Shown here one piece after another: positions 2,150 to 20,866 of a stretch of 22,637 nucleotides of DNA. The notes under the pieces were generated by a model. It worked only from the letters and a program-made list of their open reading frames with translations, was not told where the DNA came from and searched no databases. Positions within the stretch are counted from its first letter, which is position 1. Every line of letters starts with the position of its first letter. A program made the translations under genes and the position numbers. The stretch is from a virus: the IMG/VR virus record IMGVR_UViG_3300025769_000918, positions 1-22,637 of that record, one strand, 5' to 3'.

Positions 2150-2623
2150 TTATTTATCTATGGGACCAGCGTATGAAAAGTAGGTGTTTTTACTGACAGG
2201 CATCATGGTGTCGAAAGTGCTCAGGGGGAATGTGACAGTCTCCTTGCAGAAGGAGAGTATGGGCACCTGGTGGAAGTCCTCCACTAGTTGTGCCACGGGA
2301 TCCGTGTCGTCACCGTACACACCGGTCTGTTCCGTGAAGAACTGGAAGTGCCACGTGGTCTGCCGGCCCTCGTAGAACGATCCGAATATGTGGTTCTTGA
2401 GGCTCTGTATCTCGATCCGCTGTGGTGGCAGTTCCCAAGTGATGTTGCCCCTCATCTGTAGGAGTTGTAGCATAGTGTTGAAGTTCGAGTTCTGGTTGCG
2501 GGCTATGGCCAACGAGTGCTTGTCGTGTATGACCTCCCCGGCTTTAGTCTTGAACGGGAACGCCTGCTTCAGGTTGCCGTTGTCTGTTATGTCCACCAAG
2601 GTGTGAATCCTGTACTCGTGCAT
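2150..2623 (-). CDS. Phage protein of unknown function
   Basis: 157 residues from the ATG at 2623 (MHEYRIHTLVDITDNG). A longer reading from a TTG at 2659 would run through the terminator hairpin and the late promoter, so the internal ATG is preferred. The protein looks like a compact alpha/beta fold with many aromatic residues (WELPP, WHFQFF). It resembles to my eye a conserved T4-like marine phage protein, but I cannot name a family or function. The late box CTTAAATA ends 5 nt before the ATG with no Shine-Dalgarno between, so the message may be leaderless. Confidence 0.82.
   Translation of the reverse strand: MHEYRIHTLVDITDNGNLKQAFPFKTKAGEVIHDKHSLAIARNQNSNFNTMLQLLQMRGNITWELPPQRIEIQSLKNHIFGSFYEGRQTTWHFQFFTEQTGVYGDDTDPVAQLVEDFHQVPILSFCKETVTFPLSTFDTMMPVSKNTYFSYAGPIDK
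2151..2158 (-). promoter_or_regulatory. T4-type late promoter box GATAAATA
   Basis: The minus strand reads GATAAATA across the stop codon of the upstream gene (2150-2623). It would give the membrane-anchored protein at 1786-2100 its own late transcript with a leader of about 45 nt. One mismatch from TATAAATA. Confidence 0.55.
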
Positions 2624-2628
2624 AGCGA

Positions 2629-2636
2629 TATTTAAG
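2629..2636 (-). promoter_or_regulatory. T4-type late promoter box CTTAAATA, 5 nt before ATG
   Basis: The minus strand reads CTTAAATA then TCGCT then the ATG at 2623. By T4 spacing (box about -13 to -6) the transcription start would be the A of the ATG. It sits directly downstream of the terminator of the previous unit, so it opens a new transcription unit. Confidence 0.6.
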
Positions 2637-2640
2637 TCAT

Positions 2641-2677
2641 AAAAAAAGGGCGGAGCCAATTAAGGACCCGCCCTTTT
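2641..2677 (-). terminator. Rho-independent terminator
   Basis: The 10-bp arms AAAAGGGCGG (2644-2653) and CCGCCCTTTT (2668-2677) flank a 14-base loop. On the minus strand the hairpin is followed by a run of seven T, so it ends the transcript of 3261-3698 and 2709-3233. The A/T tracts on both sides could also stop plus-strand transcription weakly. Confidence 0.85.
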
Positions 2678-2708
2678 GTTGATCCAGTCTGTTGACTAGT
2701 GGTTATGC

Positions 2709-3233
2709 TTACGCATCACCCCTTTGGTCGAACATTCCGTAGATGGCATCATCACCTGTTGAGCCTACGCCCTCTGGTAATAATGTTCTGATTTTAACGT
2801 GAACGTTACCTGCTGAGTCACTAACCGCTAGGCTGGCTAGGATGTCAGACTCAAGGTCAGCTTCAGCGTCCGCTATCACCGTCGTGTCAACATCCATGTT
2901 GATGTCGCCGGCTGAGTCCGCGTTGTTGAATTGACCCGGTGTGCCTTCAACGATGAACTGGTATGAGTCGATTGAATCATCCGCGTCTATCGCCGCCACT
3001 TCAGCCGCATCGTTGTCAGTGGCTTTCGCCGCTGTTCTGTATGATGCCGCAAGTAGTGTACCGTTCTTGTTCACGACCTTGGCTGTCTTGTCAAACACAG
3101 AGTCAAGTGACTCAAGGTTTGTGGCAGAAGCCGTGATCGCGTCATCGAAGATGACTTCAATGAAAGTTAAACCCTTACCATTGAACGCCTGTCTTCTTGT
3201 TAGATCAGTTGATCTGTTTTGTGTTATTGGCAT
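2709..3233 (-). CDS. Asp/Ala-rich protein, probably abundant, possibly structural
   Basis: 174 residues with a low-Cys, Ala/Asp/Ser/Thr-rich composition and beta-prone segments (LTFIEVIFDDAIT near residue 22, YQFIVEG near 91, VHVKIRTLLPEG near 145). It has a strong Shine-Dalgarno (AAAGGAG, 7 nt before the ATG at 3233), follows 3261-3698 after 27 nt, and is closed by a strong terminator at 2641-2677. Both the signals and the composition suit a highly made virion protein such as a capsid or tail decoration protein, but no family is recognised. This is an inference from expression signals only. Confidence 0.85.
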   Translation of the reverse strand: MPITQNRSTDLTRRQAFNGKGLTFIEVIFDDAITASATNLESLDSVFDKTAKVVNKNGTLLAASYRTAAKATDNDAAEVAAIDADDSIDSYQFIVEGTPGQFNNADSAGDINMDVDTTVIADAEADLESDILASLAVSDSAGNVHVKIRTLLPEGVGSTGDDAIYGMFDQRGDA

Positions 3234-3260
3234 TGTGTTTCTCCTTTTATGCTATTGCGA

Positions 3261-3698
3261 TTACGCTAGTACCATTTCAGAAGCCGCAACAGTTGAAAGA
3301 CTCACATCGTAAGTCGTGTCATCTGAAGTTGCTGTTCTAGTACCTCTGGCCGCTAGTGCTGTACCTAAACTTCTGATGTAGGTCTGCATGTTGGCCGCCG
3401 CTGTCGCTGTTGGAGAAGCAACGTTACCGTCTGAGTCACCCCAAGTGTCTTCACCCTCAACACCCACAGTGATAACACCGTTGGTTGTTGTTACGTTGAA
3501 GTACTTGATTGTTCCTCTGGTTTGGATCGCTTGCATGATCTTGTCCACGATTCCACCGTTGTGTGTTAATCCATCGATGTCAAGAGCAGTGTTAGTTGCA
3601 TCCTTCACTGTTACCGTGAAAAATTCAATGTCCTTACCTGAACCGATTGATACTTTGTCTGCTGTGTAGAAAGCAGTACTGTTTGAGTTAATTGCCAT
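3261..3698 (-). CDS. Thr/Ala-rich protein, probably abundant, possibly structural
   Basis: 145 residues, Thr/Ala/Asp/Gly-rich with alternating beta-prone segments (IEFFTVTVKDATN near 24-36, IKYFNVTTTNGVITVGV near 64-80) and no Cys. It has a near-perfect Shine-Dalgarno AAAGGAGG 7 nt before the ATG. The leader is about 60 nt, starts from a late box at 3762-3769 and holds a hairpin at 3735-3751. It is the first gene of a two-gene unit with 2709-3233, ended by the terminator at 2641-2677. Likely a virion component, but no homologue is recognised. Confidence 0.85.
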   Translation of the reverse strand: MAINSNSTAFYTADKVSIGSGKDIEFFTVTVKDATNTALDIDGLTHNGGIVDKIMQAIQTRGTIKYFNVTTTNGVITVGVEGEDTWGDSDGNVASPTATAAANMQTYIRSLGTALAARGTRTATSDDTTYDVSLSTVAASEMVLA

Positions 3699-3734
3699 TG
3701 TTAATCCTCCTTTTTATCTGATTTAAATGACTAT

Positions 3735-3751
3735 GATGCCGCTCAGGCATC
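3735..3751 (-). promoter_or_regulatory. Hairpin in the 5' leader of 3261-3698
   Basis: The minus strand reads GATGCC-TGAGC-GGCATC, a 6-bp perfect stem (7 with the flanking A-T pair) and 5-base loop. It lies about 10 nt downstream of the late box and about 35 nt upstream of the start codon. There is no T run, so it is unlikely to be a terminator. A 5' stabilising hairpin or processing site would fit the strong expression signals of the gene. Confidence 0.5.
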
Positions 3752-3761
3752 AAGTTAAATG

Positions 3762-3769
3762 TATTTATG
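3762..3769 (-). promoter_or_regulatory. T4-type late promoter box CATAAATA
   Basis: The minus strand reads CATAAATA, one mismatch from TATAAATA. It is the only promoter-like signal between the stop of 3798-4397 and the ATG at 3698, and it gives a leader of about 58 nt that carries the hairpin and a strong Shine-Dalgarno. Confidence 0.65.
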
Positions 3770-4397: not shown

Positions 4398-4497
4398 CAC
4401 ACTCTTGACAGCCGCAGTCCGGACAGTCAAGACACTCGGTGCATGATTTACCACAGTGCTGTTCACAGCCACACCGCTCACAGATGTACTTGATCAT
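4381..4497 (-). CDS. 38-residue Cys-rich, probably metal-binding mini-protein
   Basis: An ATG at 4497 overlaps the TGA stop of the upstream gene by one base (TGATG), and the frame runs to TAG at 4381. The product has 10 Cys in 38 residues, at positions 6, 9, 11, 15, 19, 22, 25, 28, 30 and 33, with a His at 14. The spacing gives repeated CxxC and CxC pairs, as in zinc-ribbon or metallothionein-like proteins. Such a pattern would be very unlikely by chance. The gene also overlaps the FkbM start by 17 nt. Two zinc sites or a small metal cluster are plausible. The role is unknown. Confidence 0.72.
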   Translation of the reverse strand: MIKYICERCGCEQHCGKSCTECLDCPDCGCQECDAKRE

Positions 4498-5060
4498 CAC
4501 ACGGCCCCCTTCATGGCCCTGTGTAGGTCCGTGCCCGCCAGTTTGGCGGCTAGATGCTGGAGCAGTTTCTTCCTTGTGACCTGCTTGTTCTTGTCATCCA
4601 ACCCATTGTAGTTGGCGATATTTCTTCTGAGGTTCTTGTAGTTGGCGTCAGTTATGTTGAGAGCCCTCTCCAGTTGCGTCAGATTCCGGTAGTGGTCTTC
4701 CCAGGTCCTTAGGTATCTCCTCACGGCCATCACGGGCACCGGTTGCCTCTGCCTCATGGCCTGTGCTTGGTTCTTGTTCTTTAATTTTTTTGTTATCTCC
4801 GGATCACCGGTCACTATGGCCAGCATGTTGGCTAGATCATTGTTGATCATCCTGACCTGGTCAAACGTGCCCTTGGCCATGGTCTGGTCTGCGTATGATT
4901 TAGCAAAGTCCCTCATCTCCCTGATCTGGCTGAACAATGAAAGCGCGAGGAAACTGAGGTATATCCTCTCGGTGACTTCTGGAAACGTGTATCTCTGCAA
5001 GTCACTCTGTCGCCTTATGACCTTGCCCTCAGATACATACTTTAAGAATGGTGTAAGCAT
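4497..5060 (-). CDS. Helical phage protein of unknown function
   Basis: 187 residues from the ATG at 5060 (MLTPFLKYVSEGK). A second ATG at 5066 in the same frame overlaps the last base of the late box, so it would probably not be transcribed. The protein is almost wholly helical and basic, with heptad-like charged segments (about residues 45-70 and 115-165) and no Cys or membrane segment. The perfect late box TATAAATA ends 5 nt before the ATG. The Cys-rich and FkbM genes follow with one-base and 17-nt overlaps. No family recognised. Confidence 0.8.
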   Translation of the reverse strand: MLTPFLKYVSEGKVIRRQSDLQRYTFPEVTERIYLSFLALSLFSQIREMRDFAKSYADQTMAKGTFDQVRMINNDLANMLAIVTGDPEITKKLKNKNQAQAMRQRQPVPVMAVRRYLRTWEDHYRNLTQLERALNITDANYKNLRRNIANYNGLDDKNKQVTRKKLLQHLAAKLAGTDLHRAMKGAV

Positions 5061-5065
5061 ACCCA

Positions 5066-5073
5066 TATTTATA
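5066..5073 (-). promoter_or_regulatory. Perfect T4-type late promoter box TATAAATA, 5 nt before ATG
   Basis: The minus strand reads TATAAATA, TGGGT, ATG. This is an exact match to the T4 late consensus with the start codon at the predicted +1. It lies in the gap between two divergent genes whose start codons (5060 minus, 5080 plus) are only 19 bp apart. Confidence 0.75.
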
Positions 5074-5079
5074 GATACT

Positions 5080-6096
5080 ATGCAACGTAATTTTATATTG
5101 ACCGACGTGATGAAGACCGGCAACCACCTAGAGCTGGAGGACTACATCAACATGAATTCCATGCCGCACCAGGATTTCCACATGACCGGGGAGTACTACA
5201 CACTGCATGACTACAACCTCGACGCCTATGATCGGAGGTTCGCCATGATAGACACCCGTGTGGAAAATCAACGGTTGAAAGACAATCCAGAGTTCATGGC
5301 AGAGATAGATCGCAGGATACAGCTCTTGAAGAGCCAGAACTTCGTGTTCATAAAAACCACGCCATGGGAGAGTCCCTCCACGCTGGAATCAGAGGACACA
5401 TGGCCCATGGTGGACGTGCCGCACGTCAGGTGGACCGGCGACACCAGCTGGTTTTGGTGGCTGATGTACAAAAAGTACAAAGATCATGATTTGGAATTCA
5501 AACACACAGAGAAGAAGTTTGACTTCCTTTACCTCAACAAGACACCAAAAAAGCACAGGAAGAAATTATACGATCAACTGCACACCGACATCAACACGGG
5601 TAGTCTGGTGTCATATTGGCCTACCCTTAAGCTAGCGCCGGAATATGAAATTGTGCATCCTTATCCAGAACGGGGGTTGGACCAAACGATCATGCCCAGG
5701 CAGTATGAAGACACCAAGTACTCCCTGCTGTCCGAATCTACGGACGTCAACACAGAAGTTTTCATGACCGAACGCATCTGGAAATCTATAATCGCTGAGC
5801 ACGTGTTCGTCGTCCATGGCAACTACCTTTACCTGCAGAAACTCAGGGAGATGGGTTTCAAGACATTTTCGAAGTATTTTGATGAGGGCTATGACCTTGC
5901 GCGAGATCAAAACGAACGGGCGGAAAAGATAGCCAACACCTGTAGGGATCTACTCACCAAGAACTGGCAAGACATTTACCTGCAAACGAAATATTTAAGA
6001 CAGCACAATAAGAATAACTTCTTTGATGAGGGCAGACTAAGTGCTGAGATCAATAAACAGTTATCAATTTTTCTTGAATTTGCTGATCGCAGTTAG
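5080..6096 (+). CDS. Glycosyltransferase-like protein, paralogue 1 of 3
   Basis: 338 residues from the ATG at 5080. The frame stays open for another 300 nt upstream, but that part is antisense to 4497-5060. The C-terminal half carries a block shared with 13232-14245 and 17527-18663: TERIWKSIIAEHVFVVHGN, then YLQKLREMGFKTFSKYFDEGYD (about residues 229-271) and a final RQHNKNNFF. The EK/ER..KP..PF..G pattern followed by LR..GF.TF...DE.YD resembles the C-terminal nucleotide-sugar half of GT-B enzymes such as GT10 fucosyltransferases. That link is from memory and unproven. The N-terminal half is specific to this copy. The 3' end overlaps the convergent gene by 33 bp. No clear promoter is seen. 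Confidence 0.82.
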   Translation: MQRNFILTDVMKTGNHLELEDYINMNSMPHQDFHMTGEYYTLHDYNLDAYDRRFAMIDTRVENQRLKDNPEFMAEIDRRIQLLKSQNFVFIKTTPWESPSTLESEDTWPMVDVPHVRWTGDTSWFWWLMYKKYKDHDLEFKHTEKKFDFLYLNKTPKKHRKKLYDQLHTDINTGSLVSYWPTLKLAPEYEIVHPYPERGLDQTIMPRQYEDTKYSLLSESTDVNTEVFMTERIWKSIIAEHVFVVHGNYLYLQKLREMGFKTFSKYFDEGYDLARDQNERAEKIANTCRDLLTKNWQDIYLQTKYLRQHNKNNFFDEGRLSAEINKQLSIFLEFADRS

Positions 6097-7281
6097 ATTC
6101 CTCCTGGAGAATCCCAACCTATCAACCAATTTGACCGCACTGCCCGACCGGTCCACTGCCACGAAACCCTCTGGCTCAGTGACCTCCAAGCCACTGTCGG
6201 TTTGCTGGAATGAACCTATGGCCTGGGCCTGGTTCATCTTCTTCAGCACGAACGCCTTCATGGTCTGTACAGCACGATAGAAAGTCAGCATGGCCTGTAA
6301 TGGCTTCTTGGCCCTGTTGAGGAAGATGGGCATCTGTTTTATCTTCTCTTGTCTTAAGTTGAGAGCCTTCTGTGCTTTCAGGCCTGACATCTGCTGTGTC
6401 ATCCTGTCGTTGTAGAACCTCTTGAATCCCAGTAGGAACCGGTTGGCATCGTTTGGAAGTTTGCCTTCCCTGACCATGGCGTTGATGTACATCTGGAACA
6501 TGGGCACGAAGTCCTGATTCTGTCCCAACACGCTGGCGAGGTTCCTCGGCACGTTGTTTAACAATGATTCCAGTTTCTCGATACCATTGTAGAACTGTTT
6601 TGTTTCCACGTCTGTGAACTTGGCCGACCCTGACACGTCTTTATATGTTGCGTTGTCAAAGAACACGTCTGGTGACTGGGTAAACGCATCAACATCCGCT
6701 CCCGCCTGGGCGTTCATGTCCGCCAGTGAGTCCCCCACGTATGTGGTGTGGAATATGATGCCCACCTTGGCCCTGTCAATCCGCCGTCCTAGGTCTGACT
6801 GTTCTGGCACAGCATAGGTGATGGTGTTGGGTGTGAACGTGAGGTTGGGCTTGCCGTCGATGTTCTTACGAGTTATGTCCTCGTCGGTGAACAACAGGTC
6901 ACCCTGGTACACTCCAGTCATGTCCAGTTTCTTGAGATGCACAAGACACTTGAGTAATTTCTGTCCCAGGTCGTCCGTGCCATGGTTGTTTGCTATATCT
7001 CGCTTGGTGTAATTTACTTTTGCCGCCTTGGCGAAAACTGACTTGGTGCCCACGAAGAACCGGCCGTTGTCGGGGTTGATCCCACACACCACCGCGGGTG
7101 CGCCATCCCATTTAACTGACACCTTCACGGCCTCTGAGCTAGTTCCTTTCAGTGTTAGTAGCAGGCCCCTGAAATAATCCAATACGGCCCGACCACCCTC
7201 GTAGCCGTCGGTGATCACGATGTCCTCGATGTGCTCCAGGTGTGTCCTCTTGAATTCTGTAAGGACGTCTTCTATCAGCAT
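6064..7281 (-). CDS. DUF6267-like phage protein with nucleotidyltransferase (ligase-like) motifs
   Basis: 405 residues. It resembles a conserved T4-like marine phage protein annotated as DUF6267 (from memory). In order I see VKWDGAPAVVCG (56-67), with K57 in a KxDG motif as in motif I of ATP-dependent DNA/RNA ligases; GVYQGDLLF (123-131), motif-III-like; KVGIIFHTTY (172-181), like motif IIIa; and, after a helical insert (about 225-350), EGFVAV (371-376) and VKLVDR (383-388), like motifs IV and V. If real, K57 would be the adenylylated lysine. The order is right but the III-IV distance is long. It starts 4 nt after 7286-7585 (AAGAGGA ahead) and overlaps the convergent paralogue by 33 bp. Confidence 0.85.
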   Translation of the reverse strand: MLIEDVLTEFKRTHLEHIEDIVITDGYEGGRAVLDYFRGLLLTLKGTSSEAVKVSVKWDGAPAVVCGINPDNGRFFVGTKSVFAKAAKVNYTKRDIANNHGTDDLGQKLLKCLVHLKKLDMTGVYQGDLLFTDEDITRKNIDGKPNLTFTPNTITYAVPEQSDLGRRIDRAKVGIIFHTTYVGDSLADMNAQAGADVDAFTQSPDVFFDNATYKDVSGSAKFTDVETKQFYNGIEKLESLLNNVPRNLASVLGQNQDFVPMFQMYINAMVREGKLPNDANRFLLGFKRFYNDRMTQQMSGLKAQKALNLRQEKIKQMPIFLNRAKKPLQAMLTFYRAVQTMKAFVLKKMNQAQAIGSFQQTDSGLEVTEPEGFVAVDRSGSAVKLVDRLGFSRRNLTAISKFKKN

Positions 7282-7285
7282 GTGA

Positions 7286-7585
7286 TTAGTCCTCTTGGTA
7301 GTCGCCGTCTATGGTCTTCAGCACGTTCTGTTTGATGTCTCTGTTTTCTTTTATCCTAGCAACGCCTTTGCTGAACTTGGATGCATCCATGTTCTTAAGT
7401 GCTGAGTTGAATTTCTTTTCAAGTTTGTATGCGGTGTCCTGGTCGAAGTTCTCCCTGATGTAGTGCATCAGTCTTATCGCACTTTCCAGGATGTGTGATG
7501 CCCTGCTCTCGACCACCTCCTCCTTGTCCCTTTTCAGGGGCATTGAGCTGAGTTCTTCCAGTAGACTTCGCGTGTGTTTTTGCAT
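7286..7585 (-). CDS. Small helical phage protein of unknown function
   Basis: 99 residues, MQKHTRSLLEELSSMP at the start, with long charged helices, ESRASHILESAIRLMHYIRENF in the middle (about 26-47) and an acidic end. It resembles a small protein I associate with T4-like marine phages, next to the DUF6267-like gene, but no function is known to me. A late box (AGTAAATA, 7594-7601) lies 8 nt upstream of the ATG. The stop is 4 nt before the next ATG, so the two genes form an operon. Confidence 0.82.
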   Translation of the reverse strand: MQKHTRSLLEELSSMPLKRDKEEVVESRASHILESAIRLMHYIRENFDQDTAYKLEKKFNSALKNMDASKFSKGVARIKENRDIKQNVLKTIDGDYQED

Positions 7586-7593
7586 ATCTAAGG

Positions 7594-7601
7594 TATTTAC
7601 T
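7594..7601 (-). promoter_or_regulatory. T4-type late promoter box AGTAAATA
   Basis: The minus strand reads AGTAAATA, 8 nt before the ATG at 7585. It differs from TATAAATA at the first three positions but keeps the conserved TAAATA core minus one base. The predicted leader is about 3 nt. Confidence 0.5.
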
Positions 7602-7630
7602 CTTTATTGTAGCATAATAAAAGCAAAAGT

Positions 7631-8323
7631 CTACTTCAAATGTTGTCGTAGATAGTTCGAAAGGTAGTTTTCCAGCGTTCTGTACTGTGCGGGAGCGTGA
7701 TGTATGTTATAATCTGTATGGTCATTGTCTGGCATGTTCTGCCACATGTATTGGTTACCACAAAACGAAAACAGATCTATAATATTTTTGTTTGACTCTA
7801 TAAGATCAGTTTTAGTAAATCCTTTGTAACCTTTGATGTGTTTCCTGTCAAACTTGTTGCACATGTCAAACATGATATGATTTATATTCCTGCTTTCCAA
7901 GAAGGCAGACAGTAAAACCACTTCTGTAAAGACCTTGTCCCAGTAAGTCTTTATGTTTGGTATATTACCATAATACAGATCTATCATTAATGCCAACTTT
8001 TTCTTGTCCACCTCCGTGGCCAGCGTGTGTCTAGTGGAATCCAAAAGCTCTTTTCTCTGTAGGGGGAACCATGCTCCGTCGATGGGATCTTCGTTTTGTG
8101 CGATGGCTAACTCCCATCTGTGAGCGAAGGTGATCGGTATGATGACAAAGTGCGGATTACCATTCTGTGCTATCCATTCAACTGTTGTCCTACAGGTCCG
8201 TTGGAAACTGGTCGCCGCTTTTGATATGTTCTCCACGCTATCGCACCCAAGAGCCGAAACAAATTGGTTAGATGGGTTCCAACACTCCCCAAAACTACAA
8301 CCATTTATTAATAAAGTGTTCAT
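7631..8323 (-). CDS. SGNH/GDSL hydrolase-like protein
   Basis: 230 residues. The N-terminus LLINGCSFGECW (4-15) matches block I of the SGNH fold with GCS in place of GDS, placing the nucleophile at S10. A strand PHFVIIPITFAHRWE (about 57-71) follows, where block III would lie. Near the C-terminus, DHTDYNIHHAPAQY (about 201-214) provides the D..H-like block V, with H208 or H209 as the candidate catalytic base. SGNH enzymes are esterases, lipases or carbohydrate acetyl-esterases. Residue matches are partial, so activity is not certain. A second protein of the same type lies at 19267-19887. The coding region is more AT-rich than its neighbours. No clear late box or Shine-Dalgarno precedes the ATG. 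Confidence 0.75.
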   Translation of the reverse strand: MNTLLINGCSFGECWNPSNQFVSALGCDSVENISKAATSFQRTCRTTVEWIAQNGNPHFVIIPITFAHRWELAIAQNEDPIDGAWFPLQRKELLDSTRHTLATEVDKKKLALMIDLYYGNIPNIKTYWDKVFTEVVLLSAFLESRNINHIMFDMCNKFDRKHIKGYKGFTKTDLIESNKNIIDLFSFCGNQYMWQNMPDNDHTDYNIHHAPAQYRTLENYLSNYLRQHLK

Positions 8324-8372
8324 TTATTGTTTTTAATTAGTGCTCTTGAGCAAATCAACATATATATTTTAC

Positions 8373-8816
8373 ATGAGAATGAATCCACAACAGTTGCGCA
8401 GAATGTACTCTCACCCGGATCCGGACCTCGATCTAGAGGACGAGTTCTGGCCCTTGATGGGTGTGTTCGTCACCATACTGTTGGGTTGGACAGGACTTAT
8501 ACATCTGATCGACTGGCTGACCTTTAATGCCATACCGCTCTGGATGGAACCATTCACCATCACACCCTTGATATTCCTCGTGGTCATGAAGGAGCGATAC
8601 GATAGCATCAATCCCTTACACTGGTGGCCCATGTTCTGGGGTTACCGTTGTCCATTGCCGGAGGAGGATCACATAACCATAAGGCCACTGGAAGCCGAGG
8701 ATGTGTTGAAGAAATACGGTGGCAGGATGAATGTGTTCATCGTGGATCACGAGCACATCAAGTTCCGCAAGCGGAAGGATGCCGTGATGTTTGGATTGAC
8801 TAACCTTATTTCCTAG
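8373..8816 (+). CDS. Small membrane protein with two hydrophobic segments
   Basis: 147 residues from the ATG at 8373; an in-frame ATG two codons later is also possible. Two hydrophobic stretches lie at about residues 26-46 (LMGVFVTILLGWTGLIHLIDW) and 51-71 (NAIPLWMEPFTITPLIFLVVM). The first 25 residues hold Asp/Glu (DPDLDLEDEF), and the cytoplasmic-type tail of about 75 residues is rich in Trp, Arg and Lys. This suggests a two-pass inner-membrane protein. No family or lysis function can be named. The upstream sequence has TATATATT but no good late box. Its 3' end overlaps the convergent coiled-coil gene by 11 bp. Confidence 0.72.
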   Translation: MRMNPQQLRRMYSHPDPDLDLEDEFWPLMGVFVTILLGWTGLIHLIDWLTFNAIPLWMEPFTITPLIFLVVMKERYDSINPLHWWPMFWGYRCPLPEEDHITIRPLEAEDVLKKYGGRMNVFIVDHEHIKFRKRKDAVMFGLTNLIS

Positions 8817-8982
8817 CGGGTCGGAACACTGAGCCGTTGATCTCTTCGTACAGTCGCAACTTGTCAGACAGCTCTTTGATTATCTGTTGGTAGTCCGCTA
8901 TCTGCACCTCGAGGTTGCCCAGTTGCAGTCTCAAGATCCTTATCTCGTCTTGTAGGTCTACCTTATTTTCCTTGTCCTGCAT
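8806..8982 (-). CDS. 58-residue coiled-coil protein
   Basis: An ATG at 8982 lies inside the end of the basic mini-gene (20-nt overlap), and the frame runs to TAA at 8806. The product is one amphipathic coiled coil: residues 10-48 have regular hydrophobic positions (QDEIRILRLQLGNLEVQIAD, then YQQIIKELSDKLRLYEEI), followed by GSVFRPARK. It looks like SlyX-type short coiled coils in size and shape only. AAGGCG lies close upstream of the ATG. It ends 11 bp into the convergent membrane-protein gene. The regular heptads support a real protein. Confidence 0.7.
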   Translation of the reverse strand: MQDKENKVDLQDEIRILRLQLGNLEVQIADYQQIIKELSDKLRLYEEINGSVFRPARK

Positions 8983-9106: not shown

Positions 9107-9112
9107 GTCTCG

Positions 9113-9141: not shown

Positions 9142-9150
9142 GTATATAAT
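9122..9150 (+). promoter_or_regulatory. Sigma-70 promoter for the DUF1178 gene, overlapping the minus promoter
   Basis: -35 TAGACA (9122-9127, one mismatch), a 17-bp spacer and a perfect -10 TATAAT (9145-9150). The start site would be near 9157, with the ATG at 9163. The two divergent promoters share 20 bp, so only one polymerase could bind at a time. Confidence 0.65.
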
Positions 9151-9157
9151 GTAAATA
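9150..9157 (+). promoter_or_regulatory. Late-type box TGTAAATA, 5 nt before ATG
   Basis: TGTAAATA then GTTTT then ATG at 9163. It overlaps the last base of the sigma-70 -10 element. The same TGTAAATA plus five bases precedes the radical SAM gene at 11946. The gene may therefore be served by both early and late polymerase. Confidence 0.5.
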
Positions 9158-9162
9158 GTTTT

Positions 9163-9603
9163 ATGATAAAGTTCTCCCTAAAGTGTGAGTGTTCGGCCAA
9201 GTTCGAGGGCTGGTTCCCCAGCAACGAGGACTACGAGAACCAACTGGCACAGGGACAGTTATTGTGTCCAATGTGTGACAGCACACAGGTCAGGAAGGAC
9301 ATCATGGCACCAGCGGTGCCAAAGAAGAGCAACGCTCGGAAGCGTGGTAAGGCGAAAGTCAAAGAGATGGCGGGTGACCAGATGGTGATGGGTGGACAGG
9401 CCCGAACACTGTTGAAGCAGATACAGAACCACGTGGAACAGAACTTCGAGAACGTGGGCAAGAACTTCGCTCGAGAGGCCAGGAAGGCACACCGGGGCAA
9501 GAGAGATCTGGAGTTCTATGGAAATCCCTCCAAGAAACAGGTGGATGATCTCATCAAGGACGGCATAGACCTGTTCCAGGTGCCCAAGGTAAAGGACAAC
9601 TAA
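9163..9603 (+). CDS. DUF1178 zinc-ribbon protein
   Basis: 146 residues from the ATG at 9163. The open frame extends upstream only through promoter DNA. It begins MIKFSLKCECSAKFEGWFPS and continues with LLCPMCDSTQVRKDIMAPAV, matching the DUF1178 layout (C..H/C.FEGWF, then CP.C.S..V.K..MAP.V). Candidate zinc ligands are C8, C10, C35 and C38. The middle is basic (KKSNARKRGKAKVKEM). The C-terminal block with ENVGKNFAREARKAHRGKRD and a DGIDLFQVP ending also fits the family. DUF1178 proteins are known mainly from proteobacterial chromosomes, and their function is unknown. The next gene starts with GTG directly at this stop. Confidence 0.88.
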   Translation: MIKFSLKCECSAKFEGWFPSNEDYENQLAQGQLLCPMCDSTQVRKDIMAPAVPKKSNARKRGKAKVKEMAGDQMVMGGQARTLLKQIQNHVEQNFENVGKNFAREARKAHRGKRDLEFYGNPSKKQVDDLIKDGIDLFQVPKVKDN

Positions 9604-11547: not shown

Positions 11548-11898
11548 TTAAAGATTAACTGTATCACCAACCGAACCGTCTGGTAATAACCATTCCGTCC
11601 TGAAGTGCTCCACCGTGTCCGTGGCATCTACTGGACTGAAAGGCGTTGAACTGTCACTCCAAGCGCCGTCGATAGCGTTCTGGAATGCTGTCTGGTCGGC
11701 ATCTGATTCAAACTCATAGGTAACAACCAACGTCTGTCCACCGTCCTCAAGTGCCTCTGTCTTTGTGGGTGTCGAGGTATCGTAAACAGATGTGAACCCG
11801 ATCTTGGTGTTGGCATCTGCTGTCGATGAGAAAGTCTTAAGGGTGCTATCTGCTCCTCTGATTCTGAAATATTTCTTGTGTCTGTATTCTGCCGCCAT
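11548..11898 (-). CDS. Small conserved paralogue family protein, copy 2 of 3
   Basis: 116 residues. It is related to copies 1 and 3 through EYRHKKYFRIR at the start, TFSSTADANTKIGF, EDGGQTLVVTYEFES and a following DQTAFQNAI helix. Its middle region differs from copies 1 and 3, which are closer to each other there (both have KCAFH.T.LT). The ATG has AGGAGA 8 nt upstream. A perfect TATAAATA box (11924-11931) gives a leader of about 20 nt. It is the first gene of a two-gene unit ended at 11146-11176. Function unknown. Confidence 0.85.
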   Translation of the reverse strand: MAAEYRHKKYFRIRGADSTLKTFSSTADANTKIGFTSVYDTSTPTKTEALEDGGQTLVVTYEFESDADQTAFQNAIDGAWSDSSTPFSPVDATDTVEHFRTEWLLPDGSVGDTVNL

Positions 11899-11923
11899 TT
11901 TTGAATCTCCTAGTTAGCAAACG

Positions 11924-11931
11924 TATTTATA
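11924..11931 (-). promoter_or_regulatory. Perfect T4-type late promoter box TATAAATA
   Basis: The minus strand reads TATAAATA, 25 nt upstream of the ATG at 11898, with AGGAGA between. Only one base separates it from a plus-strand box (11933-11940), forming a back-to-back pair of late boxes. Confidence 0.75.
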
Positions 11932-11932
11932 C

Positions 11933-11940
11933 TGTAAATA
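11933..11940 (+). promoter_or_regulatory. Late-type box TGTAAATA, 5 nt before ATG
   Basis: TGTAAATA then CCTTT then the ATG at 11946, the same geometry and box as before the DUF1178 gene. No Shine-Dalgarno fits in the gap. Confidence 0.55.
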
Positions 11941-11945
11941 CCTTT

Positions 11946-12836
11946 ATGCGCGTAAAACACCTACACATCGAGGCATCCAGCCACTGCAACGCCCGTTGTC
12001 CAGGGTGTCCTCGTAACGGATATGGTTTTCCGCTAGAAGGGTTTTTCAAAGCAACTAATCTTGCTACCGACCAGCTACGAGAGATCCTCAAGCGATTCCC
12101 AGAGGTAACCAGCATCAATTACTGTGGTAACCACGGTGATCCTATGATGAATCCTGAGATTGCCGAGATGTGTGATCTGAAAGGTGTAAATTGCTCCATA
12201 GCCACCAACGGCAGTATTGGCAAAATCTCCACCTACGAAAAGATCGCTCAAACGGGAACCAAGATCACGTTTGGCATAGACGGTTTGAGCGATACAAATC
12301 ATCTTTACCGACAAGGAGTTGTATGGGACAATTTGATGCTCCGTGCCCGGGCGTTCATTGAAGCGGGAGGCCAAGCTACCTGGCAATTTATAATGTTCCA
12401 ACACAACATGCACCAAGTCCAACAAGCCAAGAGGATGAGTGAGATAATGGGATTCAAAAAATTTTTCACTTTGGATGTGGGCAGGAATAACATGCCGGCA
12501 ATTCAACCCGATAAAACAGTAAGCCACTGGATTTTGCCTCCGGACATGAATGCGAGGCCCACGGAGTTTGATGTTGATGCATACCTTAAAATGAGGTACG
12601 ATCCAGTGGACTTTACAAGCTCCACACAAGAAAGCATCAAAATATCATGCGAGCATCTAGATGGCAGTGTATATGTCAACAGTGAGGGAGAGTTTTTTCC
12701 CTGTTGTTATCATGGTTTTGGACACGTAGATCGACCAAAGGTGTATCTCGAGGAATTTGAACAGGTCAAGTCAACTTGGGAAACAAAAAATTGTAATCAG
12801 GTCTGTGCTGAATCTTGTGGTTTAGTTAGAAAATAA
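11946..12836 (+). CDS. Radical SAM protein with SPASM-like C-terminal cysteines
   Basis: 296 residues from the ATG at 11946. The [4Fe-4S] motif is C14-x3-C18-x2-C21 (HCNARCPGC). GNHGDPMMNP (61-70) matches the SAM-binding GGEP-type motif, and FGIDGLSD (109-116) fits a core strand. A C-terminal set, C235, C253, C254, C283, C287 and C291 (SVYVNSEGEFFPCCY, then CNQVCAESC), resembles the SPASM/Twitch auxiliary cluster of enzymes that modify peptides or proteins. The substrate is unknown. It is inserted on the opposite strand between copies 2 and 3 of a small protein family, which makes those proteins candidate substrates (inference). It ends 6 nt from the convergent gene. Confidence 0.9.
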   Translation: MRVKHLHIEASSHCNARCPGCPRNGYGFPLEGFFKATNLATDQLREILKRFPEVTSINYCGNHGDPMMNPEIAEMCDLKGVNCSIATNGSIGKISTYEKIAQTGTKITFGIDGLSDTNHLYRQGVVWDNLMLRARAFIEAGGQATWQFIMFQHNMHQVQQAKRMSEIMGFKKFFTLDVGRNNMPAIQPDKTVSHWILPPDMNARPTEFDVDAYLKMRYDPVDFTSSTQESIKISCEHLDGSVYVNSEGEFFPCCYHGFGHVDRPKVYLEEFEQVKSTWETKNCNQVCAESCGLVRK

Positions 12837-13226: not shown

Positions 13227-13234
13227 TATTTATG
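13227..13234 (-). promoter_or_regulatory. Late promoter box CATAAATA overlapping the start codon of the divergent gene
   Basis: The minus strand reads CATAAATA, and the same bases contain the ATG (13232-13234) of the plus-strand gene 13232-14245. Late polymerase bound here would cover the 5' end of that gene. Confidence 0.6.
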
Positions 13235-15475: not shown

Positions 15476-16572
15476 TAATCTCTGTCCAGGTCCTGTGTGA
15501 GACAATGTATGCCCGTGTCCCAGAACCATCTATGCCTGAAGGGAGTCACGTGAAGCTCTATGCCATGCCTCTTCATGGCCTGCCTCACCTGCTTGTTTTC
15601 CGTGCTACACAGGGCATTCTTCTTGTCCAGCATCAGAATGTTTACCATGAAGGCAGTCTCGTTCACATTACCTATCCAACTGTTGAAGTAGTAATCCACC
15701 ATTTCGACTAGGTCTTTGTTTTGCTCCATGCCTTCTATGAACCATTTGTGTTCTGCTGTCATCATCTGCTGTTTGAATTTATCATCCTTTAACGTGATCT
15801 CTGCAGGAACTGACACCACTTCGGCATCTGGGAAGATACGGTTGTAATCTATGGTGTCATATGCCGATATGATCAGTGTTTCCGACACCGGAGCAAAGCA
15901 CCCATCAGAATGTCCTTCGCTAGAAGCCACGTGTATTTCCTTAGATGGAAACATCTTCGAAAATCTTTGCTTGATGCTGTCGTGATCATCATGATAGTTT
16001 TGTGTTCCCACTATCATCCTATCCCCCAATCTCGTGATAAATGACGAGTTCATGTAATCTATGGGACTGGCCACAACTTCGTTTCCTTGTTGGAGAGCGA
16101 GGGTGAAAATGTCTTTGTAGAAACTGACCTTCTGGTCGAATACATATTTGTCCTGCTTCTGGAAATCTATCCATTGTTGGTGCAACTGTTCGTCCTGCAA
16201 AGCATCTCGTGTATCGATCTGTTTAAGACCAGCGAACTCCATCCACGCGTGATTCAAATTGGGCAATCCGGGATAGTAAAGTTCATCATCAATCATGGCC
16301 ATGAAGTCTCTAGCGGCAATTGGCGGTGCGATATATCCGTTTGATATCTTGAATTGATCAAAATTCTCCGGCATGGTTGGCCTTATCACGTTGATATCAA
16401 ATGATTCAAGGAAAGTGACAAGTTTTTTTATGTCTTCCTCTGTTTCTATGGCTAGCGTTTCGAAAGTCTTCCGGAGAGCCGGATCTTTGATGAAATCAAA
16501 CAGCTCGGGAGGATAGGCACTGCCCACCACACATGTCTTGAGTTTGTTCCACTGGTGGGTGACCTTGAACAT
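15475..16572 (-). CDS. Divergent amidinotransferase-family protein (second of the pair)
   Basis: 365 residues. The Cys-ending block IHCLTQDLDRD (355-365, C357) and GHSDGCFAPVSE (220-231, H221) match the catalytic Cys and His regions of the arginine amidinotransferase superfamily. AARD (86-89) matches the substrate-binding loop. In the block where the catalytic Asp belongs, alignment to the upstream gene gives MNSSFI, so N175 replaces it. The function may therefore differ (another acceptor, another guanidine-like donor, hydrolysis, or loss of activity). A roughly 45-residue stretch after AARD (YYPGLPNLNHAW onward) is absent from the first copy. Start and stop both overlap the neighbours by one base (TAATG). 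Confidence 0.88.
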   Translation of the reverse strand: MFKVTHQWNKLKTCVVGSAYPPELFDFIKDPALRKTFETLAIETEEDIKKLVTFLESFDINVIRPTMPENFDQFKISNGYIAPPIAARDFMAMIDDELYYPGLPNLNHAWMEFAGLKQIDTRDALQDEQLHQQWIDFQKQDKYVFDQKVSFYKDIFTLALQQGNEVVASPIDYMNSSFITRLGDRMIVGTQNYHDDHDSIKQRFSKMFPSKEIHVASSEGHSDGCFAPVSETLIISAYDTIDYNRIFPDAEVVSVPAEITLKDDKFKQQMMTAEHKWFIEGMEQNKDLVEMVDYYFNSWIGNVNETAFMVNILMLDKKNALCSTENKQVRQAMKRHGIELHVTPFRHRWFWDTGIHCLTQDLDRD

Positions 16573-17486
16573 TATTCCCTCTCCAGGTCGCAGGTCACAC
16601 AGTGAAAACCACCACCTAGCGTCCTTGATTGTCTCATTGATGTAGTAATTACCTTGAATCCGCAGTCCTCTAATTTCTTAATCAAACCCTCCTGTATCTC
16701 GTCAACGACGACAGTCTCTGGATCCAAGGAAAGCACATTCATTCCTATCCATTTGGATGCGTACGGGAAGTGGTGGAAATTGCTAGGAGTGACATCATCT
16801 ACCCATATCTTTTTGTAATCCCGCATGAAATCTGGAAGCTGGTCTTCCTTGACCCTGGAGGCGTTTACCAACACAGTGTCCTTGTCCAACGCCAGCAGTG
16901 TGGAGTCGATGTGTGTTATGTCATGATCTACCACTCGCCACTTGACCACTTCGAACTCTGTTCCCACTTGTTGTTGTAACCAATCGGCACCGGCTTCGTT
17001 TGCCGAGTGAGAAAGGGAATAAAGTAGCCTGTCGTCCATCTTCAACACATTTGCCGCATCAAATATGGGATCTTGTTGTGTCTTAGGCCTGGGGGCCTTG
17101 ATTATTTCGCATTCTGCCTCTGTAAGGAAAGGGTACAATTCCAATTCGTTGGCTCGACTGGAGAATGGAGTTGGACACTGGATAACTTTGTTCCCCACAG
17201 TGAGTATTATGTCTCTGGCCGAATAGGACCAGTGTGTTCCGGTGACCTTGGGTCGATACACTTCGATACCACGGTCTTCCATGATCGCTGACAGTCGCTC
17301 TAGGTCAATGCTGGCTTCATCCATCACATGTGAAGCTGGTTTGCCTGCTTTGAGAGTTTCATGGTACGTTGATCGAGCTATTCCTTCGTCAAATTCTTTG
17401 TCGTTGTCCGGCCATTGAAAATTTTCCACACTGCCCACGATGGCAGATCGTAACTTGCCATACTCGTTTTTGGTAGATATCTTCAT
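16572..17486 (-). CDS. Arginine:glycine amidinotransferase-like enzyme
   Basis: 304 residues. It matches my recollection of human AGAT over the catalytic core: FDAANVL (142-148) for FDAADFI, HIDST (192-196) for HIDAT, KWIGMNVLSLD (245-255) and LGGGFHCVTCD (290-300). The triad would be D143, H192 and C296, with D-H and H-C spacings of 49 and 104, as I recall for the human enzyme. AGAT moves the amidino group of arginine to an amine such as glycine. The acceptor here is unknown. The protein lacks the long N-terminal part of the animal enzyme. It is the first gene of the operon, 5 nt after a late box that sits in a palindrome. Confidence 0.93.
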   Translation of the reverse strand: MKISTKNEYGKLRSAIVGSVENFQWPDNDKEFDEGIARSTYHETLKAGKPASHVMDEASIDLERLSAIMEDRGIEVYRPKVTGTHWSYSARDIILTVGNKVIQCPTPFSSRANELELYPFLTEAECEIIKAPRPKTQQDPIFDAANVLKMDDRLLYSLSHSANEAGADWLQQQVGTEFEVVKWRVVDHDITHIDSTLLALDKDTVLVNASRVKEDQLPDFMRDYKKIWVDDVTPSNFHHFPYASKWIGMNVLSLDPETVVVDEIQEGLIKKLEDCGFKVITTSMRQSRTLGGGFHCVTCDLERE

Positions 17487-17502
17487 GCACTTATTTAAGT
17501 GC
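17487..17502. repeat. Palindrome holding a late promoter box
   Basis: GCACTT-ATTT-AAGTGC: perfect 6-bp arms and a 4-base centre. The late box CTTAAATA (17492-17499, minus) lies inside it, so the box is embedded in a potential protein-binding or cruciform site directly against the ATG at 17486. Confidence 0.7.
17492..17499 (-). promoter_or_regulatory. Late promoter box CTTAAATA, 5 nt before ATG
   Basis: The minus strand reads CTTAAATA, AGTGC, ATG (17486). It drives the amidinotransferase/dehydrogenase operon, with predicted +1 at the start codon. The same eight bases occur before the ATG at 2623. Confidence 0.6.
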
Positions 17503-17526: not shown

Positions 17527-18663
17527 ATGAAGTTGGCCAGATACATCGACAGAGAATGGCACCACTACTGTGTGCGTGACAATAATGTGATAGACACACT
17601 GTTCTTTGACTTCAACGAGTTCAAAAAATCGGATGCACAAAAAAAATTTTCATACCTGCAGGACTTTGACGCCACTTTTGACTCACTAAAATCACTGGAA
17701 GAAAAGATACGCCAACACATTCCTGTATCGGACCATGTGTACGTTGGGCTGGGGGAGCCGTTGGTGCAGTACAAAGACGCATCCAAACACGGTTGGGACA
17801 CAGAAAACAACATCGCAGAGGGACCTTACTATTACACGGACGATTTTATCAACAGGTTCTCAAAATCAGATCCAGTGACCTTTTTTGCCAATCTTGTTTC
17901 TCATGTGCCGTTGAACCGCCCAATATATTACCTTAATGACATGTTCTTTCAAGACAATAAAATTTACAGGAACTACAAGATATGCAGAAATCTATTAGGC
18001 AAACTCTCTAGAACATTTGACAAACGGTACCATTGGGAAATAATGTGCAGTCATAATGTTAAGTTGTACCAAGCACTCAAACGGCACGTTGTAAACTCTA
18101 AAACTTTCTCTACCTGTCACGCACTGGGAATCACTCACTGGGGACAGGATGTCATTGTGCCCTCAGACAAAAAATCTGGCGCAGAATCAATAGATCCAGG
18201 AAATCACAACATTAGATGCAGTGATTTGATAGATCCCAGCATTTACAATCAATCACACTATTCATGTGTTGTTGAAACTGTCATACCATCAGACAATAGG
18301 ATGTCCATGTTCAGTGAGAAGGAGGCCAAACCCATAGTGGCCAAGAGACCATTCATAATTGTTGGCACAATGGATCATCTCAAGGCATTCCGGAGCCTGG
18401 GATTCAAAACATTCTCGCCTGTGATTGATGAATCGTACGACGACGAACCAGATTTTGATAAAAGGGTAGAAATGATACTCGATGCCATGGAAGCGTTGTC
18501 ACAAAAAGATCCCATGGAAGTTTATAGAAAATTAGCGGGCGTCTTGGAGCACAATCACTATCATTTCTATAACAACAAATGGAACAAGAAACTATTGGAG
18601 GAATGGTATCAAGGCGAGATTCTGTTCAAAACACAAACAGAAACGATCATAAAACCAAGGTAA
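17527..18663 (+). CDS. Glycosyltransferase-like protein, paralogue 3 of 3
   Basis: 378 residues, the longest copy. The shared C-terminal block reads MFSEKEAKPIVAKRPFIIVG, then HLKAFRSLGFKTFSPVIDES and YDDEPDFDKRVEMI, followed by LEHNHYHFYNNKW where the other copies have RQHN.N.FF. The N-terminal half is unique, soluble and rich in aromatic and charged residues. A TATAAT (17506-17511) lies 15 nt before the ATG but has no good -35. The gene is divergent from the amidinotransferase operon and ends in a hairpin shared with the convergent oxygenase gene. The glycosyltransferase call is tentative. Confidence 0.8.
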   Translation: MKLARYIDREWHHYCVRDNNVIDTLFFDFNEFKKSDAQKKFSYLQDFDATFDSLKSLEEKIRQHIPVSDHVYVGLGEPLVQYKDASKHGWDTENNIAEGPYYYTDDFINRFSKSDPVTFFANLVSHVPLNRPIYYLNDMFFQDNKIYRNYKICRNLLGKLSRTFDKRYHWEIMCSHNVKLYQALKRHVVNSKTFSTCHALGITHWGQDVIVPSDKKSGAESIDPGNHNIRCSDLIDPSIYNQSHYSCVVETVIPSDNRMSMFSEKEAKPIVAKRPFIIVGTMDHLKAFRSLGFKTFSPVIDESYDDEPDFDKRVEMILDAMEALSQKDPMEVYRKLAGVLEHNHYHFYNNKWNKKLLEEWYQGEILFKTQTETIIKPR

Positions 18664-19925: not shown

Positions 19926-19946
19926 TAGTTCTTTTATATTCTGTGA

Positions 19947-20183
19947 TTATGCGGAGTAGTCTGGCAGTGGTCCACCGTACTTGCGACCCTTGATACGTTT
20001 GCCCGCCACCTTCTGTGTCTTGCCACCTATCTTCTGCTTACGATCTCCGGTACGTTTCATACGTCCCTTGGATTTACAGCTCGAGATCCAAGATGCCGGC
20101 AGTTTTGACTTGGGTCGACTACACACGCCCGCTGGTGCTGGTCCTATGTTCTCGTCTGTGTTGTAGACTTCGTAGATCTTCAT
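19947..20183 (-). CDS. Basic phage protein of unknown function
   Basis: 78 residues from the ATG at 20183 (MKIYEVYNTDENIGPAPAGV). A longer frame to 20201 reads through the promoter box and is not used. The C-terminal half is strongly basic (KGRMKRTGDRKQKIGGKTQK) and ends RKYGGPLPDYSA. It contains two Cys (about positions 21 and 36). It resembles a small T4-like phage protein of unknown role. The MKI.EV start is shared with 20354-20866, which also has a basic Cys-containing C-terminal part, so the two may be distant relatives. A GTTAAATA box lies 8 nt upstream. Confidence 0.78.
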   Translation of the reverse strand: MKIYEVYNTDENIGPAPAGVCSRPKSKLPASWISSCKSKGRMKRTGDRKQKIGGKTQKVAGKRIKGRKYGGPLPDYSA

Positions 20184-20191
20184 CGCACGTG

Positions 20192-20199
20192 TATTTAAC
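20192..20199 (-). promoter_or_regulatory. Late-type box GTTAAATA
   Basis: The minus strand reads GTTAAATA, 8 nt before the ATG at 20183. It keeps the TAAATA core and predicts a leader of about 3 nt. Confidence 0.5.
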
Positions 20200-20264
20200 A
20201 CATCCGTCCACCCAAAGTTGATCTTGTGCAGAACAACGCACCTGTTATTTCTAGCATCAGTTCA

Positions 20265-20331
20265 AGCATTAGGTTAAGCATAAGGTTAACCATAAGCACT
20301 AGGTTAAGCATTCAGCATTAAGGTTAAGCAC
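20265..20331 (+). repeat. Short direct-repeat cluster (AGGTTAAGCA) upstream of a late promoter
   Basis: AGGTTAAGCA occurs exactly at 20271-20280, 20301-20310 and 20321-20330, with a variant AGGTTAACCA at 20283-20292. Larger units AGCATT/AGCACT plus AGGTTAAGCA recur, so the repeat is partly nested. It ends 10 bp before the late box at 20341-20348. The 152-bp region between the divergent starts at 20183 and 20354 has no gene. Confidence 0.85.
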
Positions 20332-20340
20332 GGTAAGGTC

Positions 20341-20348
20341 AATAAATA
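20341..20348 (+). promoter_or_regulatory. T4-type late promoter box AATAAATA, 5 nt before ATG
   Basis: AATAAATA then CCCGT then the ATG at 20354. One mismatch from TATAAATA. The repeat cluster lies directly upstream. Confidence 0.65.
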
Positions 20349-20353
20349 CCCGT

Positions 20354-20866
20354 ATGAAGATCACTGAAGTAATCCTAGCGCCAACCAAACAGGAACACAC
20401 TAGATCTAGTGCCACACGATCCAGTGCCATTGCGGATGACAAGACACAAGATCCAGTGCCACAGGACCTAGTGCCTGTTATGGTCAATGGTGAGATCGAA
20501 TCACATCCAGACCATTCCGCCATAGCGGAGGGTGTCAGTCAGATCCTGAGGCGTACCAAGGGCAAGGCACCCAAGCAGGGTTTCAGGTGCTCGTCAGGAC
20601 CAAGGAAGGGCAGGATAGTGGCCAAGCCATCGACCTGTTTCATGAAGACTGACCCGCAGAAGTCAGCCAAGATCCGGAAGAAGCGACAGATCAAGGCCAC
20701 CCAGGCAGGCAAGAAACTGGCCCAGACCAAGCGATCAGGGGCGGGCTCACTGAGATTGAAGGGTGCCCAGATCAAACAGGCCAAGCAGAAGGGACCGAGC
20801 TTCCGAGGCAAGACGAAAGGCCGTTCACCCGTCAAATCCAAGATAGTGAGACCAAAGAAAAGGTAA
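20354..20866 (+). CDS. Basic phage protein with repeat-expanded N-terminal region
   Basis: 170 residues. The N-terminal 50 contain RSSATRSSA and QDPVPQDLVP, both encoded by the same DNA repeat read in different frames (20403-20475). Residues about 70-170 are strongly basic, with Lys/Arg-rich segments (KKRQIKATQAGKKLAQTKRS and others) and two Cys (79 and 95). The protein probably binds nucleic acid or is a packaged basic protein, judged from composition. It shares MKI.EV at the start with 19947-20183. The last residues are KIVRPKKR. No known domain. Confidence 0.82.
   Translation: MKITEVILAPTKQEHTRSSATRSSAIADDKTQDPVPQDLVPVMVNGEIESHPDHSAIAEGVSQILRRTKGKAPKQGFRCSSGPRKGRIVAKPSTCFMKTDPQKSAKIRKKRQIKATQAGKKLAQTKRSGAGSLRLKGAQIKQAKQKGPSFRGKTKGRSPVKSKIVRPKKR
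20403..20475 (+). repeat. GATC(C/T)AGTGCC repeats within a coding region
   Basis: GATCTAGTGCC (20403-20413), GATCCAGTGCC (20418-20428 and 20450-20460) and GACCTAGTGCC (20465-20475). The spacings are 15, 32 and 15 nt, so the first and second pairs are read in different frames. Confidence 0.85.

Follow-up and report, generated by a model that had tools for sequence, protein, structure and literature searches.

Bacterial leaderless mRNAs begin at a 5'-terminal AUG and carry no Shine-Dalgarno sequence. The late promoters of phage T4, which depend on gp55/gp33/gp45, consist of the octamer TATAAATA at positions -13 to -6, with an A as first base at -13 and no -35 element, and drive late units on both strands (PMC2988020, in its available text); the same box is found in the NATAAATA late promoters of the cyanomyoviruses S-PM2 and Syn9 (available text of PMC2984593), and in the jumbo phage CBB a TATAAATA-like motif occurs at 35 places, for which the authors expect a role in late expression (available text of PMC5259590). 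T4-type late promoters and leaderless mRNAs are each known already; no paper joining the two was found in the open-access literature. Here we describe a stretch of viral DNA of 22,637 nt (IMG/VR record IMGVR_UViG_3300025769_000918, positions 1 to 22,637; the window), in which six genes begin exactly five bases after a box ending in TAAATA. The spacing is written below as N5, and other box-to-ATG gaps likewise. A sequence-only reading of the window had taken these boxes for late promoters of probable leaderless mRNAs, and from the spacing we predict, with good confidence, that late mRNAs at boxes with N5 to N8 are leaderless or have a leader of 1–3 nt.

TAAATA occurs 15 times in the window, both strands counted, and an ATG follows at N5 in six cases, at 2623, 5060 and 17486 on the minus strand and at 9163, 11946 and 20354 on the plus strand; all six sites and their gap sequences were exactly as first reported. 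The open reading frames (ORFs) behind these ATGs are 146–304 codons long. Three more boxes have the short gaps of 7–8 nt that had been claimed, N7 at 1025 and N8 at 7585 and 20183, and the remaining six lie at N21 (1546), N24 (13202), N25 (11898), N50 (2100) and N63 (3698) before genes and at 5997 (minus strand) with no assignable gene. The TAAATA core is present in all 15 by selection, the full TATAAATA in only 2. With a background ATG frequency of 0.0194 per position in the window, the binomial probability of at least 6 of 15 boxes having an ATG at N5 is 2.3e-7, and TAAATA-N5-ATG ranks first among 66,619 hexamer/spacing combinations (hexamers occurring 10–40 times in the window, spacings 0–30), the runner-up having P = 1.0e-5. 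The gap bases had been called unrelated, which is mostly so; the last base, at -1 of the ATG, departs from this, being a pyrimidine in all six. The six sites are listed here with the upstream contexts of their orthologues. Orthologues were selected on protein alone, by comparing window proteins with 88 clade loci and the related contigs G015 and G019 and counting unique upstream contexts; starts aligning within 6 residues of the query start were taken, and a start was excluded if it lay at a contig edge or had no ATG nearby.

2621..2636, minus strand: late box CTTAAATA, gap TCGCT and ATG of gene 2150-2623; orthologue contexts N5 in 22 of 47, boxless 23, N17 in 1, one-mismatch box at N9 in 1.
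5058..5073, minus strand: late box TATAAATA, gap TGGGT and ATG of gene 4497-5060; orthologue contexts N5 in 57 of 57.
9150..9165, plus strand: late box TGTAAATA, gap GTTTT and ATG of gene 9163-9603; orthologue contexts N5 in 18 of 19.
11933..11948, plus strand: late box TGTAAATA, gap CCTTT and ATG of radical-SAM-like gene 11946-12836; orthologue contexts N5 in 2 of 4.
17484..17499, minus strand: late box CTTAAATA, gap AGTGC and ATG of gene 16572-17486; orthologue contexts N5 in 1 of 2.
20341..20356, plus strand: late box AATAAATA, gap CCCGT and ATG of basic protein gene 20354-20866; orthologue contexts N5 in 1 of 1.

Relatives were retrieved from IMG/VR with the protein of 6064-7281, giving 80 loci and 904 kb. 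These hold 574 TAAATA boxes, followed by ATG at N5 in 195 cases, at N6 in 62, at N7 in 24, at N8 in 53 and at N0–N4 together in 8, N0–N4 being the range in which the start codon would drop out of the mRNA. At N5, counted with no ORF filter, GTG follows the box twice and TTG once. An ORF filter of at least 50 codons kept 190 of the 201 N5 sites in the 80 loci and the window, with 50 distinct 8-residue N-termini; TAAATA also peaks at N27 (78 cases), where none of 79 sites (window included) opens an ORF of 50 codons. For a count by family, we took the first ORF-filtered ATG within 40 nt of each box, using seven more contig pieces and the window along with the 80 loci, and grouped the proteins by blastp. 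The resulting 418 box-led starts fell into 48 protein families, some of the small ones possibly fragments or false ORFs, with N5 in 21 families, N4 in none, N2 and N3 in 1 each, N6 in 5, N7 in 5 and N8 in 8. A scan of related genomes had been named with the sequence-only reading as its refutation test; what it returned is N5 enrichment, by box and by family, with a sharp cut-off at N4, so that the reading was not refuted. N5 is also kept in the best-sampled orthologue sets, those of 4497-5060, 9163-9603 and, in part, 2150-2623.

The N5 starts lack Shine-Dalgarno sequences, as had been claimed for the gaps of the six in the window. Scoring as strong a duplex energy with the 16S tail of -4.5 or lower, 3 of 120 N5 upstreams had a strong Shine-Dalgarno, which is the shuffled level (14 of 600), and 4 of 42 at N6–N8, against 21 of 47 where the box was at least 18 nt away and 108 of 238 among boxless operon-internal genes (shuffled, 48 of 238). 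Three families are a natural experiment on the two kinds of start, scored on unique upstreams. All 49 orthologues of 6064-7281 that lack box-N5 had a strong Shine-Dalgarno, against none of the 5 that have box-N5; the corresponding figures are 10 of 24 versus 0 of 21 for 2150-2623 and 1 of 1 versus 0 of 17 for 9163-9603. The families of 11946 and 16572, with 2 and 1 N5 contexts, were uninformative, and one of their N5 contexts, in G015, scored strong.

The T4 geometry supplies the predicted start. If the box spans -13 to -6, +1 is the sixth base beyond it and therefore, at N5, the A of the ATG; the position of about -13 assumed in the sequence-only reading agrees with the available text of PMC2988020. 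A purine stands at the sixth base in 91% of 42 unique leadered contexts (gap of at least 18 nt; one family dominates), in 90% of 10 at N7 and in 75% of 16 at N8. A purine is likewise common at the predicted +1 in T4, where it follows 18 of 23 leadered TATAAATA boxes, and the corresponding counts are 9 of 13 in RB49, 8 of 10 in KVP40, 3 of 5 in HTVC008M, 11 of 14 in Mosig and 17 of 20 in G009. The full TATAAATA is present in 52 of the 57 contexts of the 4497-5060 family. With one site taken per family, the sequence just 5' of the N5 boxes, at -29 to -18, is C-rich and then T-rich, which would suit an intrinsic terminator of the preceding unit abutting the promoter.

The boxes would accordingly be read as late promoters of the T4 type, used by a gp55-class factor, with many operon-first late genes fitted so that +1 coincides with the A of the ATG (N5) or precedes it by 1–3 nt (N6–N8). 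Since such mRNAs would be leaderless or nearly so, translation would start at the 5'-terminal AUG without Shine-Dalgarno pairing, presumably by recognition of the AUG itself. A second late class would keep longer leaders, often with a Shine-Dalgarno, like many operon-internal genes. Spacing enrichment and its conservation, the N4 cut-off, the missing Shine-Dalgarno and the purine at the predicted +1 of leadered units all support the leaderless reading, which is the best-supported one, with the start sites themselves predicted.

Some observations weigh against this interpretation, and they are set out in this and the next three paragraphs together with rival explanations and the evidence on both sides. 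In the redundant loci control hexamers, counted with no ORF filter, also peak at single spacings (TAAATT at N0, 72 of 616; TACATA at N8, 77 of 463), which is why the family-level count was needed. Among the matches listed in scans of all IMG/VR, TATAAATA-N5-ATGAAA opens an ORF of at least 50 codons in 91 of 121 and the N4 control in 64 of 119; these scans discriminate poorly and were set aside as evidence. The purine at the sixth base is weak at N6 (57% of 14).

At N5 starts, all 21 families (one site counted per family) have a pyrimidine at -1, as do 76 of the 79 distinct gaps; among leadered boxes the figure is 48% of 42, so that the bias may have another cause. A/U-rich stretches by start codons can aid initiation without a Shine-Dalgarno. 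The box might thus act in the RNA, as an A/U-rich ribosome or S1 element before the start codon, with transcription beginning further upstream; the pyrimidine confined to N5 sites and their lack of a Shine-Dalgarno would suit such an element. It would have no such role at the boxes lying 18 nt or more upstream of other starts, many of them led by a Shine-Dalgarno, and it predicts neither the near-empty N0–N4 range nor the purine at the sixth base where no ATG stands there, and we rate it very unlikely.

The true starts might instead lie elsewhere, at an upstream GTG or TTG or a downstream ATG, with N5 a coincidence. In-frame GTG or TTG codons do occur upstream in 4 of the 6 window N5 ORFs, and in 4 of the 7 N5 families with at least 5 contexts (box and ATG fixed by selection) conservation over the 16 nt before the box equals or exceeds that of the coding start. 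In the other three (4497-5060, 9163-9603 and 6064-7281) conservation rises at the ATG, in 4497-5060 from 0.65–0.71 upstream to 0.94/0.99/0.88 at the three codon positions downstream, and past the ATG the third codon position is the least conserved in 6 of the 7 families and tied in 1. No in-frame ATG, GTG or TTG lies upstream of 109 of 198 N5 starts, orthologues align to the N5 methionine, and in HTVC008M 12 of 14 N5 sites are independently annotated coding-sequence starts, the N5 genes including DNA end protector, head closure, baseplate, tape measure and tail completion proteins. Misplaced starts therefore seem scarcely credible as the explanation.

A further difficulty for the proposed T4-type late promoters is that the fragments examined from the window's own lineage (the 88 clade loci, the window itself, G015, G002 and G003) yielded no gp55 homologue. 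A candidate in G019 (E 5.5e-4) was rejected, the protein matching another conserved jumbo-phage protein and phrog_11058. The box could then be a sigma70-type -10 element read by the host polymerase, and the mRNAs would still be leaderless; TATAAATA includes TATAAA, close to a -10 hexamer, and its expected start would likewise fall near the ATG. Yet in 21 families no -35 element rose above shuffled sequence (mean best match 2.74 observed, 2.94 shuffled), the TA that TATAAA needs is present in only 2 of the 15 window boxes (its lack being a departure from the full T4 octamer too), and gp55 homologues exist in the jumbo relatives PA5oct (1.4e-13) and SCTP-2 (2.4e-15; 130 kb examined). None was found in 130 kb of 2.275.O. 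We consider host reading of the box unlikely and, by analogy with these relatives, a T4-type late system in the window's own lineage likely.

The window comes from an uncultured marine phage that, judged from its proteins, is related to PA5oct-type jumbo phages and is not a canonical T4-like phage. At the nucleotide level, only about 150 nt of the first 8 kb match cyanophages, and the best family match, phrog_455, is common to cyanophages and HTVC008M (41%). For the virion proteins 159-1025 and 7286-7585 the matches are jumbo phages, PA5oct-like ones among them (48% over 75 aa for one virion protein), and the related contig G002 carries ClpX, bS21, Hsp20 and ClpS together, as PA5oct does (ClpX and ClpS of G002 assigned by eye). 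Canonical T4-like identity was not borne out by 26 T4-type profiles, which gave only two weak hits, neither credible, in the 88 clade loci, the window and G015 (a 159 kb cousin), all fragments: gp45 in L065 (E 0.0024) and gp44 in G015 (E 0.005). This near-absence of T4 core hits fits fragments of a large genome; PA5oct has gp23, gp20 and gp17 homologues as well. A host assignment from a 95% identical TctA in a Pelagibacter metagenome-assembled genome (MAG) was dropped, since the 2.8 kb concerned (L606, Candidatus Pelagibacter MAG) agree with clade contig G003 at 100% identity and are therefore a phage contig binned with the bacterium. In G019 (L578), at 5406-11288, two separate ORFs match DNA polymerase families, the larger matching annotated DnaE-type phage polymerases.

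Phage by phage, N5 counts after ORF filtering were compared with expectation (P values uncorrected). They are 1.7e-10 for the window, 1.4e-7 for G002, 4.2e-7 for G003, 1.6e-12 for G015, 1.1e-3 for G009, 1.1e-19 for G014, 6.3e-4 for G016 and 0.12 for G019; G014, G015, G016 and G019 were entered through an N5 match and so have at least one site apiece by selection. Among named phages, an N5 excess like the window's is found in the Pelagibacter phages HTVC008M (1.4e-11) and Mosig (2.7e-4) and the Methylophilales phage Melnitz (0.015), to all three of which G014 is related (baseplate protein 37–39%); unlike the window-clade contigs examined, where it was not found, these three phages carry the full T4-type core. 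In 80 loci around HTVC008M-like major capsid genes there were 74 N5 starts (in 54 loci), 3 at N4 and 0 at N6, against 224 at N15–N40 with background included; these loci were not collapsed to families, and many of the N5 starts belong to one gene by N-terminus, of tail completion type. The major capsid genes of Melnitz and Mosig have no N5 box but a Shine-Dalgarno recognised by eye; gp2 is an N5 gene in both phages. The PA5oct-like jumbo phages (Arenbergviridae) share the virion protein and the ClpX/bS21/Hsp20/ClpS block; unlike in the window, N5 is only marginally above chance in PA5oct (0.041; 5 of 611). The values are 0.032 for SCTP-2 (130 of 440 kb), 0.23 for 2.275.O (130 of 349 kb), 0.097 for LR756508 (50 of 484 kb) and 1.0 for Phosso (50 of 469 kb).

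No N5 excess was seen in T4 (0.06), KVP40 (0.34), S-PM2 (0.44) or S-CAM9 (0.36), nor in RB49, Syn9, phiM12, Cr30, phiM9 or AG-345-P14 (all 1.0), and in P-SSM2 the N5 pattern and its reversed control gave 6 matches each. The cyanomyoviruses S-PM2, Syn9 and S-CAM9 thus differ from the window in spacing, and in T4 0 of 32 TATAAATA boxes have an ORF-opening ATG at N5, the peak being N28 (6), whereas N5 dominates in the window lineage. Bacterial leaderless mRNAs differ in another way, the window-lineage class being coupled to a phage late promoter whose geometry is fixed. Host class was discarded as the cause, the alphaproteobacterial phages phiM12, Cr30 and phiM9 having no N5 start (Cr30 and phiM9 hold only 27 and 14 TAAATA).

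The distribution of N5 bears on the idea that leaderless late genes are an adaptation to a phage bS21 that would, late in infection, divert host ribosomes from Shine-Dalgarno pairing. The bS21 family (PF01165) occurs in HTVC008M, Mosig, Melnitz, G002, G003, G009 and G015, all with N5, and was not found in the N5-negative T4, RB49, KVP40, Syn9, S-PM2, S-CAM9, phiM12, Cr30, phiM9 and AG-345-P14; with HTVC008M bS21 in the ribosomes, output from a GFP template was about 5% of wild type (available text of PMC6375957). The authors of that work explain the 5% by missing factors or incompatibility with E. coli ribosomes (same text), the bS21 carriers are partly related by descent, bS21 is also present in PA5oct, SCTP-2, 2.275.O and G019, where the N5 excess is slight or absent, and G014 (a fragment) and G016 show N5 with no bS21 found. 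Weakened from both sides as a cause of leaderlessness, bS21 is kept only as an improbable explanation. In Vibrio phage 2.275.O (L584:31702-32479) an annotated IF-3 adjoins a ribosomal protein S21 gene, near an L7/L12/ClpS-like protein.

The other box-led units of the window are short-leader and leadered ones.

1023..1040, minus strand: short-leader late box, 7-nt gap, virion structural gene 159-1025; orthologue contexts N8 in 21, N7 in 10, N30 in 1 (n=32).
7583..7601, minus strand: short-leader late box, 8-nt gap, virion structural gene 7286-7585; orthologue contexts N6 in 38, N8 in 14, N7 in 1, N5 in 1 (n=54).
20181..20199, minus strand: short-leader late box, 8-nt gap, basic protein gene 19947-20183; orthologue contexts N8 in 2 of 2.
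1544..1575, minus strand: leadered late unit, 21-nt gap, gene 1043-1546; orthologue contexts N21 in 31 of 32.
3696..3769, minus strand: leadered late unit, 63-nt gap with Shine-Dalgarno, gene 3261-3698; orthologue contexts without a box within 50 nt in 11 of 11.
11896..11931, minus strand: leadered late unit, TATAAATA box, 25-nt gap with Shine-Dalgarno, gene 11548-11898; orthologue contexts N24 in 3 of 4, N20 in 1 of 4.

The two virion genes keep their spacing, at N7 or N8 in 31 of 32 contexts for 159-1025 and at N6 or N8 in 52 of 54 for 7286-7585, and the leadered unit 1043-1546, holding N21, is therefore just as stable. Because its orthologues are boxless, the link between box and gene at 3261-3698 is tentative; orthologues of 10392-10760 likewise have no box within 50 nt (17 of 17). 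The Shine-Dalgarno sites described earlier for the units at 3698 and 11898 were seen again by eye, and two classes of late unit coexist. At 11924-11940 the TATAAATA box for 11898 and the TGTAAATA box for 11946 stand on opposite strands with one base between them, a leadered and a predicted leaderless unit diverging from one spot.

Genes 19947-20183 (minus strand) and 20354-20866 (plus strand) encode small, very basic proteins with the N-termini MKIYEVY and MKITEVI, which may resemble the N-termini that target T4 proteins to the capsid and hold a gp21-type cleavage motif. Several of the N5 and N4 matches listed in the IMG/VR scans begin in a similar way (MKxxxxxLxE). The products of 13232-14245, 17527-18663 and 4756-6096 have a common C-terminal stretch, PF.V......LK.LR..GF.TF, and 11175-11519, 11548-11898 and 12843-13202 resemble three paralogues by eye.

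It is possible, and we suggest it tentatively, that late promoters came to set the start codon in at least two marine phage lineages of the T4 superfamily, those of the PA5oct-type jumbo phages and of the pelagiphage-type myoviruses. Some virion proteins would then change, late in infection, from Shine-Dalgarno-led to leaderless initiation, and late proteins would thereby escape the usual host translation rules, perhaps helped by phage initiation parts such as bS21 and, in a relative, the annotated IF-3. A leaderless late mRNA is a suggested substrate for asking why ribosomes with the phage bS21 translated the reporter poorly (available text of PMC6375957). If the reading is true, box-N5-ATG could be used by annotators to fix gene starts, and many late proteins of abundant ocean phages would be made by a start mechanism unlike that of T4.

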